This document shows positions 3 through 35,208 of a stretch of DNA of 35,208 nt, one piece after another. Position 1 is the stretch's first letter; the number at the start of each line of letters is the position of its first letter. The notes under the pieces are model-generated. The model did no database searches, had not been told where the DNA came from, and saw nothing but the letters and a program-made list of their open reading frames with translations. Position numbers and translations under genes: made by a program. Origin of the DNA: Parcubacteria group bacterium Gr01-1014_33 (lineage in GTDB: Bacteria > Patescibacteriota > Minisyncoccia > Sungbacterales > HO2-52-23); contig VMFQ01000003.1 in NCBI GenBank assembly GCA_007376125.1, forward strand, positions 1 through 35,208, read 5' to 3'.

Positions 3-497
3 ACCACCGCGCCTTCCGGATTTGCCGAAGGGTTTATATTTACCTACTCCCGCTCTACTGGAGCGCTTACGAGAATTTTAGGCCCTTTTCTTGGGCTTAC
101 CACGACCTGGGCGCCCAACACACCGGTATTCTTTGCTTCGGCAACAAGAGAAGCCGGAAAACGGCTTGGCGCGAGCATACGAGAGGTTCCCGGCAAGTTC
201 CTCTCCGCTTTTCCCGCCACTATTGCCCAAAAATGCGCATGGGCAGACGTAAATCTGATTTATTGCGCGGTGCCACGTAGTATCCCCGAGTCTGTCTCGC
301 TTCCCGACGACTATATGCGCGGCGAATTTAATTCTTCGGATCGCATCATCTCCTTTGATCGCGTAAAAAAAGAAACAAAAGAGGTATTGAACGAAGGAAA
401 TTTTGACATGGAAAACCTCGTTACCACTAAAGACAAAAAATTCCTGTTTTTTGTGAGTAGGATAGATGGAACATTGTGGTCTCTTAAACTGGAATAG
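3..497 (+). CDS. C-terminal part of a conserved hypothetical protein (CPR-type, ends ...FLFFVSRIDGTLWSLKLE), truncated by the window start
   Basis: Frame 3 is open from base 3 to the TAG at 495-497. The listed 270..497 ORF starts at an internal GTG of this longer frame. Confidence 0.7.
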   Translation, partial: TTAPSGFAEGFIFTYSRSTGALTRILGPFLGLTTTWAPNTPVFFASATREAGKRLGASIREVPGKFLSAFPATIAQKCAWADVNLIYCAVPRSIPESVSLPDDYMRGEFNSSDRIISFDRVKKETKEVLNEGNFDMENLVTTKDKKFLFFVSRIDGTLWSLKLE

Positions 498-568
498 TAG
501 GTTGTAGGAGTTAGATTGTAGTCGCTTAATTTCTAATTTCCTACTACCTACTACCTAATTCCTACAAC

Positions 569-1063: not shown

Positions 1064-1082
1064 AATAACGATCCGAAGTACA

Positions 1083-1131
1083 AAGTACGAAGTACGAAGT
1101 ACGAAGTACGAAGTACGAAGTACGAAGTACG
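1083..1131. repeat. Tandem heptamer array, 7 perfect copies of AAGTACG
   Basis: Direct reading of 1083-1131. Confidence 0.97.
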
Positions 1132-1171
1132 AATAAATGCAGGATTTTCGCTTTTTCCTTCTTTTCCTTAT

Positions 1172-1213
1172 CGTAATTCGTAATTCTTACTTCGCGATTC
1201 GTACTTCGCTCTT
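1172..1213. repeat. Degenerate period-7 array CGTAATT/CGTAATT/CTTACTT/CGCGATT/CGTACTT/CGCTCTT, inverted relative to 1083-1131
   Basis: Direct reading; contains the yidC stop codon (1187-1189). Confidence 0.9.
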
Positions 1214-1915: not shown

Positions 1916-1916
1916 C

Positions 1917-1998
1917 GAATTAGGAATTAGGAATTAGGAATTAGGAATTAAGAGAAAAGTCTTCCTTTTCCTAATTCTTAATTCGTGATTCCTGACTC
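1917..1998. repeat. Two inverted period-7 arms: (GAATTAG)4-5 and CCTAATT/CTTAATT/CGTGATT/CCTGACT
   Basis: Direct reading; the right arm encodes the last residues of YidD. Confidence 0.9.
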
Positions 1999-2788: not shown

Positions 2789-3024
2789 AACAAAATAATT
2801 CCTAATTCCTAATTCCTAATTCCTAATTCCTAATTCCTAATTCCTAATTCGGTTATCCCCATATCATCCACATTCTTTCCACAGTTGCTTTGTTCTATGA
2901 GCGTGCAGGAGTGTGCTATACTTATTGTATACGTACTCTACGGTTTTTACAAGATAGGGAAGTCAGGCACAACCGCTCAAAACAGCAGTATACCAAAGGG
3001 GATTAGTTAAATTTTATCGCATCT
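2789..3024. other. oriC: Putative oriC (rpmH-dnaA intergenic region)
   Basis: DnaA-box-like 9-mers TTATCCCCA (2853-2861), TCATCCACA (2864-2872) and CTTTCCACA (2875-2883) at exact 11-bp spacing, next to an A/T-rich heptamer array and dnaA. Confidence 0.7.
2797..2850. repeat. Tandem heptamer array, 7 perfect copies of AATTCCT (2797-2845) plus a partial copy
   Basis: Direct reading. Confidence 0.97.
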
Positions 3025-14836: not shown

Positions 14837-14950
14837 GTAGTAAGTTGTAGGTGGTAGGAAGTAGGTAGTAGGAAGATAGGGAGGAGAAAAGAATTTTCTC
14901 TCACTTTAAAACTGTCTCCTCCTACAACCTACCACCTACTTCCTACTCTC
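14837..14950. repeat. Inverted pair of degenerate period-7 arrays (GTAGTAA/GTTGTAG/GTGGTAG/GAAGTAG... and CCTACAA/CCTACCA/CCTACTT/CCTACTC)
   Basis: Direct reading. Confidence 0.88.
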
Positions 14951-16585: not shown

Positions 16586-16715
16586 AATCACAAATTACAA
16601 ATGACAAATTACAAACAATGCCGAAGCCCTAAATTCAAAATCCTAAACGTTTCGGATTTAGAACATTAGAATTTTGAATTTATTTGTAATTTGGCGCTTG
16701 TGATTTGGAATTTAC
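16586..16715. repeat. Inverted period-7 arms (AATCACA/AATTACA/AATGACA/AATTACA and TTGTAAT/TTGGCGC/TTGTGAT/TTGGAAT) around an AAATTCAAAAT...ATTTTGAATTT stem
   Basis: Direct reading. Confidence 0.85.
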
Positions 16716-30985: not shown

Positions 30986-32941
30986 TTATTTCTTTTGGTA
31001 GGTCTTGATACGATCGCGGATTTTTGCAGCGAGCTCAAAATTAAGCTCCTTAACAGCTTTTTTCATTTCCCGCTCAAGTTCTTTTACAATTTCTTTTGCG
31101 GGGCCTTCCGGGAGGAGGTTTTCTTCTTCGGACGCATCGCCAAGAATTGATTTACGGATTTCTTTTTGAATTTGCGTGGGTGTGATGCCGTGCGCGCGGT
31201 TGTATTGTTCCTGAATTTTTCTGCGCCGGTTGGTTTCGTTGATTGCCGCCTTCATAGAGCCAGTGATGGTGTCGGCATACATAATTACTTTTCCTTGAAT
31301 GTTTCGCGCGGCGCGGCCAATGATTTGTAAAAGCGTAGTCTCGTTTCGCAGAAATCCTTCTTTGTCCGCGTCCAAGATCGCGATAAACGAAACTTCGGGA
31401 AGATCAAGACCTTCGCGCAAAAGATTGATTCCCACAATCACATCGTGTTGCCCGGTGCGGAGTTTTTTTAATACCTCGGGACGCTCAAGCGTTTTTATTT
31501 CCGAATGCATGTATTCGGCGTTAATCCCCGCTTCCTTTAGATATTCCGAAATATCCTCGGCAAGCCGTTTGGTGAGCGCAAGTACAAGAGAACGTTCTTT
31601 TTTTGCAACTCGGTTTTTTATCTCACTAATCACGTCCTGCATTTGATTTTTCGCCGGGCGGATTTCAGTTTCAGGATCAAGGATCCCGGTCGGGCGCACT
31701 AATTGCTCTACAATATATTCTCCTGATTCGCGCAGTTCATACGGTCCCGGAGTCGCAGACACGTAGACGCGGCGGTGTATCCGATCATTAAATTCTTCAA
31801 ATTTCAATGGTCTGTTATCGATTGCGGACGGCAAACGAAATCCGTAATCCACTAACACATTTTTTCGCGCAAAATCCCCGTTATACATCCCGCGGATCTG
31901 GGGAATGGTAACGTGCGACTCGTCAATAAAAACAAGAAAATCATCTCCGTGGGCATAACGGAAATAATCAATCAATGTGTGCGGCGGAGATCCTGTGGCG
32001 CGAAACGATAACTGTCGCGAATAGTTTTCAATGCCATTTACATAGCCGGTGTGCTCAAGCATCTCCATATCAAATTCGGTGCGCTGTTTCAACCGCGCGG
32101 CTTCTAAAATTTTCCCTTCTTTGTTGAGCGCCTCCACCCGTTCTTTTAATTCTTGTTTTATGTTGGCGATTGCGAGCGCAAGGGTATCTTTGGGAGTTAC
32201 AAAATGTTTGGCCGGGAAAACGCGAACAGTTTGTAGGTTGTAGGTTGTAGGTTGTAGGTTTCTTGCTTCGCGGCGCTCAATTGAAGTGATTATACCGCCT
32301 CCTATTGAAACAGCGATTATTTCTTCGCCGTTGGGAAGATAAATTTCAACCGTATTTTCCCGAATCCGAAAATGGCCTTGGCGCGGATCAAGAGGATTCC
32401 GGACATACTGGAGAAGCACGAGATTTTTGGTGAGTTCTTTTTGTGAAATTTTCTGCCCGACGGTAAGTTCAATGGAAACCTTCTCATATTCTTCCGGATC
32501 GCCAACGCCATAGATGCAGGAAACGGACGCGACAATAATCACATCTTTTCGCGTAAGGAGAGATGCGGTGGAGGCGTGGCGCAACGCATCAATTATCTCG
32601 TTTATTTTCGCGTCTTTTTCAATATAGGTGTCGGTTTGGGGGATATATGCTTCGGGCTGGTAGTAGTCGTAGTAAGAGACAAAGTAGTGCACCGCCGCAT
32701 CCGGAAAAAATTCTTTGAACTCTTGGTAGAGCTGGGCGCAAAGCGTTTTATTGGGGGAGATTATAAGCGCCGGCTTTTGCATACGCTCAATCACGTTTGA
32801 CATCGTAAATGTTTTTCCACTGCCGGTAACTCCCAAAAGCGTTTGTTCCATCACTCCCGCACGCAAATTTTCTGCAAGCTGATCTATTGCCTGCGGCTGG
32901 TCGCCGGTAGGGGCGTATTGACTTTTAAGGTGAAATTGCAT
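30986..32941 (-). CDS. uvrB: Excinuclease ABC subunit UvrB
   Basis: GVTGSGKTFTMSNVIERMQKPALIISPNKTLCAQL, SYYDYYQPEAYIPQTDTYIEKD, ILDADKEGFLRNETTLLQIIGRAARN, C-terminal UVR motif. Confidence 0.97.
   Translation of the reverse strand: MQFHLKSQYAPTGDQPQAIDQLAENLRAGVMEQTLLGVTGSGKTFTMSNVIERMQKPALIISPNKTLCAQLYQEFKEFFPDAAVHYFVSYYDYYQPEAYIPQTDTYIEKDAKINEIIDALRHASTASLLTRKDVIIVASVSCIYGVGDPEEYEKVSIELTVGQKISQKELTKNLVLLQYVRNPLDPRQGHFRIRENTVEIYLPNGEEIIAVSIGGGIITSIERREARNLQPTTYNLQTVRVFPAKHFVTPKDTLALAIANIKQELKERVEALNKEGKILEAARLKQRTEFDMEMLEHTGYVNGIENYSRQLSFRATGSPPHTLIDYFRYAHGDDFLVFIDESHVTIPQIRGMYNGDFARKNVLVDYGFRLPSAIDNRPLKFEEFNDRIHRRVYVSATPGPYELRESGEYIVEQLVRPTGILDPETEIRPAKNQMQDVISEIKNRVAKKERSLVLALTKRLAEDISEYLKEAGINAEYMHSEIKTLERPEVLKKLRTGQHDVIVGINLLREGLDLPEVSFIAILDADKEGFLRNETTLLQIIGRAARNIQGKVIMYADTITGSMKAAINETNRRRKIQEQYNRAHGITPTQIQKEIRKSILGDASEEENLLPEGPAKEIVKELEREMKKAVKELNFELAAKIRDRIKTYQKK
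32231..32258. repeat. Heptamer array (TTGTAGG)x4 inside uvrB, encoding NLQPTTYNLQ
   Basis: Direct reading and translation. Confidence 0.95.
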
Positions 32942-32988
32942 AAATTTATAGAAAAGCACTTTATATTTACAAATAGGGGAGGAAGAGT

Positions 32989-33388: not shown

Positions 33389-33436
33389 TTATCAAAAGAA
33401 ATGGTATCATACATCTATGGAATCTTGATCCATTCA

Positions 33437-33464
33437 TAATTCTTAATTCATGATTCCTGATTCA
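33437..33464. repeat. Degenerate period-7 array CATAATT/CTTAATT/CATGATT/CCTGATT upstream of ruvA
   Basis: Direct reading. Confidence 0.8.
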
Positions 33465-33471
33465 AGTACTT

Positions 33472-34527: not shown

Positions 34528-35208
34528 ATGGATGTAAAAGACCAAAATTATAACTATACTACTACAGCGCGTTCATTCCTGCAATCTCCGGAATGGGAAT
34601 CATTCCAGCATTCTTTGGGGCGGGAGGCACGGCGGATTGCGGGCACGCTTCTGATACGCCATCCCTTGCCCCGCGGCTTCCATTATCTATATTGTCCCCA
34701 TCCCGAATTTCAAGAGGGCGGGCACGCACGCAAATTTTTTAGAGAAGCGGAACAATACGCGCGCAAAGAAAAAAGTATTTTTTTGAAAATTGATCCGAGG
34801 GACGAATTGCGGATTCCGGCGAATTATGAATATAAAAAATCGGATTCTCTTCAGCCAAGAAAAACGGCGCTTCTTGACGTAAAAAAATCGGAAGACGAGA
34901 TTCTCGCATGCATGCATCCGAAAACGCGCTACAATATCCGGCTGGCGGAGAAAAGAGGGGCAACGATAACGAATTACAAATTACAAATTGTGAATTACGA
35001 TACTGGACAAAAAAATCCATTTGAAACATTTTGGAAGTTACTGCAAGAAACCGCAAAACGGGATACATTCCATACTCACGAAAAACGCTACTACGAAAAA
35101 CTTCTGGCGATACATGCGCCGAATTTTTCCAACGAACTTTTCTTTGCAGAGTCTGAAGGGCGGATTCTTGCCGCGGCGCTGATTAATTTTTACCATGCCC
35201 AAAAGGGA
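34528..35208 (+). CDS. FemAB/FemX-like peptidoglycan bridge aminoacyltransferase, truncated by the window end
   Basis: My translation from ATG 34528, open to the end: FLQSPEWESFQHSLGREARRIAGTLLIRHPLPRGFHYLYCPHPEF...KTALLDVKKSEDEILACMHPKTRYNIRLAEKRG...FWKLLQETAKRDTFHTHEKRYYEKLLA...FAESEGRILAAALINFYHAQKG. Confidence 0.85.
   Translation, partial: MDVKDQNYNYTTTARSFLQSPEWESFQHSLGREARRIAGTLLIRHPLPRGFHYLYCPHPEFQEGGHARKFFREAEQYARKEKSIFLKIDPRDELRIPANYEYKKSDSLQPRKTALLDVKKSEDEILACMHPKTRYNIRLAEKRGATITNYKLQIVNYDTGQKNPFETFWKLLQETAKRDTFHTHEKRYYEKLLAIHAPNFSNELFFAESEGRILAAALINFYHAQKG

Follow-up and report, generated by a model that had tools for sequence, protein, structure and literature searches.

Tandem heptamer modules of about 31 nt in gene gaps and in-frame protein loops of a Parcubacteria genome

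Results

Heptamer arrays in the 35-kb window

The window, that is, the whole stretch of 35,208 nt presented here (contig C74 of the genome searched), carries arrays with a seven-base period in gaps between genes and in frame within two of them. Two unit families predominate in the genome, TRMTTCN (alpha) and TACHWCC (beta); in both, a core is fixed and the remaining positions are free. The features of the window are as follows.

495..521, degenerate beta-type 5' arm (TAGTAGGTTGTAGG..) between convergent genes, which begins at the upstream gene's stop codon
540..571, beta-type 3' arm (CCTACTACCTACTACC..), opposite 495-521; period 7 in TRF
1074..1136, alpha-type arm (CGAAGTA)n, 8.6 copies, in the gap between jag (R3H domain) and yidC; Pfam R3H, 60KD_IMP
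1171..1208, opposing alpha arm (TCGTAATTCGTAATTC..), overlapping yidC at its 3' end
1916..1955, alpha arm (GAATTAG)n in the yidC-yidD gap
1968..1998, opposing alpha arm CTAATTCTTAATTCGTGATTCC, paired with 1916..1955
2794..2852, alpha array (TAATTCC)8 without a partner, between rpmH and dnaA, roughly double the normal length of an arm
14837..14876, beta arm in the ruvC-yebC gap; Pfam RuvC, YebC
14877..14917, loop of the ruvC-yebC hairpin, closely similar to two copies on contig C48
14918..14948, opposing beta arm in the ruvC-yebC gap
16586..16615, arm of AATTACA/AATGACA heptads in the gap upstream of ruvB; TRF
16675..16715, opposing arm TTTGTAATTTGGCGCTTGTGATTTGG, with approximate ends read from the sequence
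30986..32959 (-), uvrB, whose UvrB_inter domain carries an in-frame array; UvrB matches in PDB include 2fdc
32231..32260 (-), in-frame beta array (TACAACC)n in uvrB, encoding LQPTTYNL
33432..33466, alpha array upstream of ruvA, without a partner
34966..34996 (+), in-frame heptad array (AATTACAAATTACAAATTGTGAATTAC) in a FemAB-family ORF

Every locus that the preliminary description had listed as heptameric has period-7 sequence at or near the coordinates given there. Its placement of these arrays between genes fails at 32231-32260, which lies in frame in uvrB, and at 34966-34996, in the FemAB-domain ORF, and the array that it gave as (AAGTACG)7 from 1083 exists but belongs to an arm that starts earlier and is longer (1074-1136, 8.6 copies). 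The arrays at 2794-2852 and 33432-33466 are single arms without a clear partner. The jag-yidC gap measures 123 here versus -18 in the relative G004, in which the two genes abut or overlap, and no array was found upstream of dnaA in the corresponding gap of the relatives. More diverged copies of the loop at 14877..14917 occur on contigs C48 and C15.

Genome-wide period and unit families

The genome searched (G000) comprises 1,047,668 bases (1.05 Mb) on 86 contigs, all of which were included, with 951 genes by simple in-house gene calls. Requiring at least 12/14 matches, 139 tandem runs were obtained at lag 7 in the whole genome, versus 23 at lag 6 and 15 at lag 8, while an order-3 Markov null gave 5 runs at lag 7 under the same threshold; the genome-wide excess of period 7, which had been set as a test of the original observation, is thus confirmed. 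At 13/14 matches the window alone holds five lag-7 runs, one at lag 9 and none at the other lags from 2 to 13. The suggested comparison of intergenic and coding DNA gave 31.6 lag-7 runs per 100 kb of non-coding DNA versus 7.7 in called coding DNA, about a four-fold difference. Allowing up to 3 mismatches, TAATTCCTAATTCCTAATTCC occurs 97 times in the genome versus once for the reversed control; pairs of TRMTTC spaced at 7 number 231, versus 4-5 each at distances 6 and 8, and even neighbouring alpha and beta units hold the 7-nt step (9 cases versus 0-3 at other distances). An assembly artefact is an unlikely source of the arrays, because heterogeneous arrays share one length and other genomes agree.

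Unit profiles were taken from interior units, read unconstrained. The alpha units read T, A/G, A/C, T, T, C, N and vary at positions 2, 3 and 7, with core positions 1, 4, 5 and 6 conserved at 86-96%, position 2 at 58/37% A/G and position 7 taking all four bases; the beta units read T, A, C, H, W, C, C, with a core at 88-98% and positions 4 and 5 free. In both families the core positions mostly exceed 84% and the free ones lie near 50%, and neither profile holds a run of three or more G per unit, as a G-quadruplex would. Units are homogenised within arms, being about twice as alike as shuffled units (0.243 vs 0.122, 9 sd). Isolated units occur at expectation (alpha 1.04x, beta 0.94x), and a single-motif uptake signal of the DUS type was rejected on this ground. 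Block transposition of arrays was likewise discarded, since multi-unit haplotypes are shared between arrays no more than in the Markov null. Low-copy families of other units, GCTCTCG and CGAAACC among them, likewise contain about four units each. Outside the alpha and beta families, an unusually long low-copy heptad array, (AGAATAG)8, was noted at L058:3827-3890.

A preferred module length

About 190 copies of a module of ~31 nt, each of 4 to 4.5 tandem heptads, were found in the genome. In base-by-base profiles the alpha arms have a median of 33 nt (n=129, 71 of them at 30-35 nt) and the beta arms one of 31 nt (n=65, 36 at 30-35 nt), with 6 and 5 false hits, respectively, in reversed genomes, and arm length is equal in coding and non-coding DNA. 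The module logo was drawn from modules of 28-37 nt, a selection that partly makes its ends sharp, and it is the unselected histograms that constitute the evidence. Lag-7 tracts collected without a profile peak at four units at all thresholds tried; the 30-32 nt bin holds 41/91 tracts in G000, 10/24 in the relative G004 and 33/95 in other phyla, for which loci were counted after masking of the seed regions, and periods 6, 8 and 9 gave few tracts in this length survey. Exact 7-nt units at many loci, mainly intergenic, place the arrays among heptanucleotide tandem repeats. Their copy number is not open-ended, and they were not filed as plain simple sequence repeats (SSRs) because tract lengths peak at 30-32 nt.

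Hairpins between genes

Using strict unit patterns, on which these counts hinge, 43 facing arm pairs were found, all of them ordered GAAKYA..TRMTTC or GTAGG..CCTAC and not the other way round, which bears out the earlier claim of inverted arms. Arm order may be family-specific: CAATTTT-type arrays, left out of this count, look reversed in the array listing. Both arms belong to one family in 40/43 pairs, and 37/43 pairs lie between co-directional genes, against a background of 520/636 gaps of at least 60 nt. The pairs cover a median of 83% of the gap and, in tandem gaps, the 5' arm begins a median of 3 nt past the stop codon and the 3' arm ends 10 nt before the start codon. At the variable positions, two arms from the same hairpin resemble each other no more than arms taken from different hairpins do, in or out of register, and both fold-back copying between arms and selection for pairing were rejected for this reason. 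Among the beta hairpins, one subfamily comprises at least four copies, on two contigs, whose loops are homologous; its closest loop pairs differ at 1/62 and 2/43 positions, and in its three closest copies the loops differ at 5/148 positions and the variable heptad positions at 12/36, with heptads aligned by hand, unit by unit. Most alpha loops are without a second copy.

Features expected of a functional RNA were sought in these gaps. The sense strand carries no wobble bias (p=1.0) and single alpha arms in tandem gaps are divided 7:7, without preference for the transcribed strand, so that selection at the RNA level was rejected. A TTTT within 15 nt of the 3' arm occurs in only 3/33 cases, on which ground a terminator was rejected, and a known RNA family was dismissed since an Rfam search of the window gave no match above the gathering score. 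Gaps that fold at z<-4 amount to 135/416 tandem, 20/39 convergent and 7/39 divergent ones, and the folding asymmetry of array-bearing gaps is no greater than that of other gaps. A cassette of stop codons in all frames does not apply in general, because by inspection beta 3' arms and AAGTACG arrays are without stop codons. As a separate observation, many tandem gaps of G000 hold long hairpins that are not heptameric, among them GTCATTCCCGCG..CGGGAATGAC, AATCGCGAATATACGAAT (19-nt lag) and CTAAACTAAGTTTAG palindromes, with example loci at L018:6890-6927, L045:3999-4088 and L075:5052-5179.

Arrays inside protein genes

Arrays of at least three units lie in 25 places within called genes, mostly conserved ones (UvrB, UvrA, LeuRS, TopA, GatA, GatB), as single arms of ~31 nt. 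Hosts confirmed by Pfam include RNase HII, LeuRS, MetRS, UvrA, topoisomerase I, UvrD, UvrB, RsmH and PheT, and further a GatA-type amidase, GatB, MurD-type and MurB enzymes and a YceG-family protein. Orientation is constant in 25/25 cases, with GAATTA in the sense strand of all 17 alpha arrays and TACAACC in that of all 8 beta arrays, because of a survival filter: those strands have fewer or no stop codons. Compared with G004, the median difference in local protein length is ~0 residues across 13 genes, and clear net gains were seen only in GatB (+16 aa), the YceG-family protein (+8) and TopA (+6).

The loop that houses the UvrB array is one residue longer than its counterpart in Bacillus UvrB. 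In the same loop, heptads of other spelling occur in G001, G008, G009 and G010, an in-frame GTCATTCCCGCG palindrome encoding SFPRKRES..NWIPDQVGNDR (L298, L291) in G006 and G011, and no array in G003, G005 and G007; array-bearing and array-free genera agree in the length of this loop. Palindromes of other sequence were noticed in the UvrB loop of G064, G069 and G075. At the place of the LeuRS array, G004 has a heptad tract of its own. The LeuRS at L020:16399-19485 (-) also holds a NUDIX domain (residues 413-529) between the editing domain and the rest, and the G004 homolog aligns only on either side of it. A near-perfect coding tandem repeat of 27 nt was noted at L015:10873-10995.

Relatives and other phyla

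The comparison with G004 covered 800 kb of its 923 kb. This relative uses other units, and again lag 7 prevails (42 runs vs 16 and 8 at lags 6 and 8), as it does in loci of other phyla outside the seed (70 vs 13 and 14). The preliminary description had named the lack of an excess over periods 6 and 8, or absence from relatives, as outcomes that would speak against the pattern; neither was seen, arrays being present in relatives, and its statement that unit length is constant while unit sequence varies holds in G000, G004 and other phyla alike. Array-bearing gaps lie between genes with G004 homologs more often than other gaps do (34/50 vs 139/492, p=4e-8), and the gene pairs flanking these 34 gaps are neighbours in G004 as well in 32 cases. 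Matching gaps have a median of 33 nt in G004 versus 109 in G000, and about one third of the pairs abut or overlap in G004, which makes the gap elements a net addition of ~80 nt. In three cases the matching gap of G004 has a lag-7 hairpin of its own, built from other units in at least two.

The yidD-yidC gap displays this lineage-specific spelling at one site across the order, with alpha heptads in G000, G003 and G017, CTAAGTT in G010 and other heptads in G020 and G021. Hairpins of other kinds occupy it in G004, G009, G019 and G022, and it is short, or the genes abut, in G002, G005, G006, G007, G011 and G018; in G012 (L227) it is filled by a hairpin with a 9-nt repeat (AACAGCACG / CTGTTCGCG) and not one of 7. 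Triples of the alpha type occur in 78/383 sampled genomes of the phylum, with a patchy distribution in the family and order. In a pattern scan of named genomes, the matches listed include Bacteroidales, cyanobacteria, Lentisphaerae, Treponema, Clostridia and Patescibacteria. The Y1 transposase family PF01797 is present in 34/57 relatives and shows no visible link with the number of arrays, being absent from G017 (31 matches) and G010 and present in array-free genomes. REP/RAYT elements were rejected because this transposase and the arrays do not co-occur.

Discussion

The STRR heptanucleotide repeats of heterocystous cyanobacteria comprise several heptamer families per genome, as is the case here, and the preliminary description had pointed to them as the nearest precedent. 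The suggestion is a fair one, although it does not cover in-gene placement and preferred arm length; we know of no STRR repeats with a preferred length of 31 nt, paired arms or in-frame copies. DNA uptake sequences of Haemophilus and Neisseria resemble the present arrays in other respects: they reach ~30 bp in Haemophilus, form inverted pairs between genes, are tolerated at coding sites and exist as genus dialects. Uptake sequences are single motifs, whereas here heptads are in tandem and isolated units are unenriched.

Among published systems, the heptameric repeats of Xanthomonas (GGGAATC / GGGANTN) and Nostoc (GGGGA(T/C)T), the majority of which have four units, are G-rich and have been discussed as G-quadruplexes (PMC4692102). 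They resemble our arrays in lying between genes, in having mixed units in which some positions are fixed and others free, in forming inverted pairs in some cases and in the four-unit mode, but the arrays described here are not G-rich, are often paired, lie in frame in conserved genes too and vary in unit spelling between genera at one site. The TAACTGA direct repeats of Beggiatoaceae, cyanobacteria and Bacteroidetes, proposed as RNA-level sites, differ by 7-nt indels between Cyanothece strains (PMC4679880); they too are heptamer arrays near start codons, with one fixed unit in direct orientation and a single indirect case, unlike the inverted pairs without strand preference found here. Rickettsia palindromic elements are insertions of 105-146 bp found between genes and in frame in conserved genes (PMC2229807), and our arrays have the same appearance of selfish DNA in both settings (25 arrays in genes), but they are single arms of ~31 nt with heptad substructure, mostly at near-equal loop length, and palindromic insertions of 105-146 bp that add residues were not the form found. 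REP elements with RAYT transposases are small intergenic palindromes without heptads (PMC3733652); GTAG occurs in beta units, and here the presence of the Y1 transposase does not go with array number. The heptamer excess, mixed heptads and four-unit modes (PMC4692102), 7-nt indels between strains (PMC4679880) and in-frame palindromes (PMC2229807) are already known. No description of heptamers in Patescibacteria was found in the literature searched, of which coverage was incomplete, and within the same partial coverage no account was found that combines a preferred length with gap-filling pairs, in-frame loops and dialects that occupy shared sites.

We hypothesize, at a probability of roughly 0.38, that a DNA-copying process that moves in 7-nt steps and stops at ~31 nt, whatever the unit sequence, lays down these modules. 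Such a process would advance seven bases at a time, halt after ~31 nt and be blind to what it copies, and its products would last only where the DNA is tolerated, namely in operon gaps and variable protein loops. In the former, two facing modules could fold into a hairpin reaching from stop to start codon; in the latter, only the strand without in-frame stops would survive, and each lineage would possess its own dominant unit families, here alpha and beta. We infer that a single process writes all modules, and that this process is of a mutational or enzymatic nature and not a product of selection. The four or so units of low-copy families fit a sequence-blind writer, the raised likeness of units within arms fits local copying, and a constant 7 and ~31 with changing spelling favours such a process over one recognition protein. 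Several observations argue against it: the position-specific constraint on interior units, for which random decay after writing would be insufficient; arms that belong to the same family in 40/43 pairs and yet are mismatched at variable positions; and a preferred length that would fit the footprint of a DNA-binding protein as well. The occupation of many sites by one family without shared multi-unit haplotypes leaves the manner in which a family spreads through the genome unaccounted for by this process.

The constrained core argues the opposite way, toward a DNA-level recognition signal, in which a genus-specific protein would read a degenerate code of heptads spanning ~31 bp, or three turns of the helix. 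This alternative, which we consider rather unlikely, survives better than the others; by analogy with Haemophilus and Neisseria, sites could accumulate by selection or by biased uptake or recombination. It agrees with the free positions around the core, the footprint-like length, the 7:7 strand distribution of single alpha arms, the absence of block copying, the enrichment in gaps whose neighbouring genes have homologs in G004 (34/50 vs 139/492), spelling that differs by genus and in-gene copies mostly at near-equal loop length. It is at odds with several unrelated unit families in one genome, some of very low copy number, with the same 7 and 31 in other phyla, with unenriched isolated units (1.04x, 0.94x) and with gap elements that are net additions of DNA relative to G004. 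The preliminary description had also proposed a protein that reads 7-nt spacing; the constrained core and free remaining positions are in its favour, but families differ within the genome, no candidate protein emerged, and neither a writer enzyme nor a reader protein was found in the analysis.

It is improbable that a MITE- or REP-like mobile element with heptad arms was transposed or copied among gaps. The beta subfamily of at least four copies with related loops on two contigs (closest 1/62 and 2/43), together with the ~80 nt added relative to matching G004 gaps, is in its favour, but most alpha loops are single-copy, unit haplotypes are not shared, target duplication was not obvious when checked by eye, PF01797 does not track the arrays, and copies inside genes consist of one arm only. 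Replication slippage of the ordinary kind, acting on local sequence, which would make the arrays SSRs with a 7-nt bias from the polymerase footprint, seems slightly less probable still. A bacterial heptamer excess is known and the footprint idea has been proposed in work cited by PMC4692102, and unit identity is raised within arms; against this stand the constrained core positions and one unit family at >100 places, unexpected from independent local events. The preliminary description had likewise envisaged copying or slippage with a 7-nt step, of which the constant step stands and open-ended slippage does not, since lengths peak at 30-32 nt and are not geometric. Very unlikely, finally, is an RNA hairpin acting in operons as terminator, attenuator or mRNA stabiliser: pairs lie between co-directional genes and gaps are rich in hairpins, more commonly when tandem or convergent than divergent, but TTTT rarely follows the 3' arm, arms do not covary at variable positions, sense-strand wobble bias is absent, the folding asymmetry resembles that of other gaps, and in-gene single arms do not form such a hairpin. 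Taken together, the lack of block copying, unenriched isolated units and absent covariation of arms argue against open-ended slippage, a DUS-like motif, selection for RNA hairpins and REP transposases.

The heptamer excess in bacteria has been noted for years, and the guesses offered have been a polymerase footprint or, for four-unit arrays, G-quadruplexes; a length of ~31 nt independent of the unit, as seen in G000, its relative and other phyla, would leave neither standing as a general explanation, and this length is the number that any mechanism must reproduce. That many phyla share a sequence-blind machinery of writing (or reading) with 7-nt steps and ~31 nt, giving genus dialects in the same loops and gaps, is a doubtful extension of this view. 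The replacement of arrays by other spellings at one site makes the rate and route of their turnover measurable and, since they alter essential proteins such as UvrB, UvrA, LeuRS and TopA, the arrays bear on how proteins evolve in reduced genomes.
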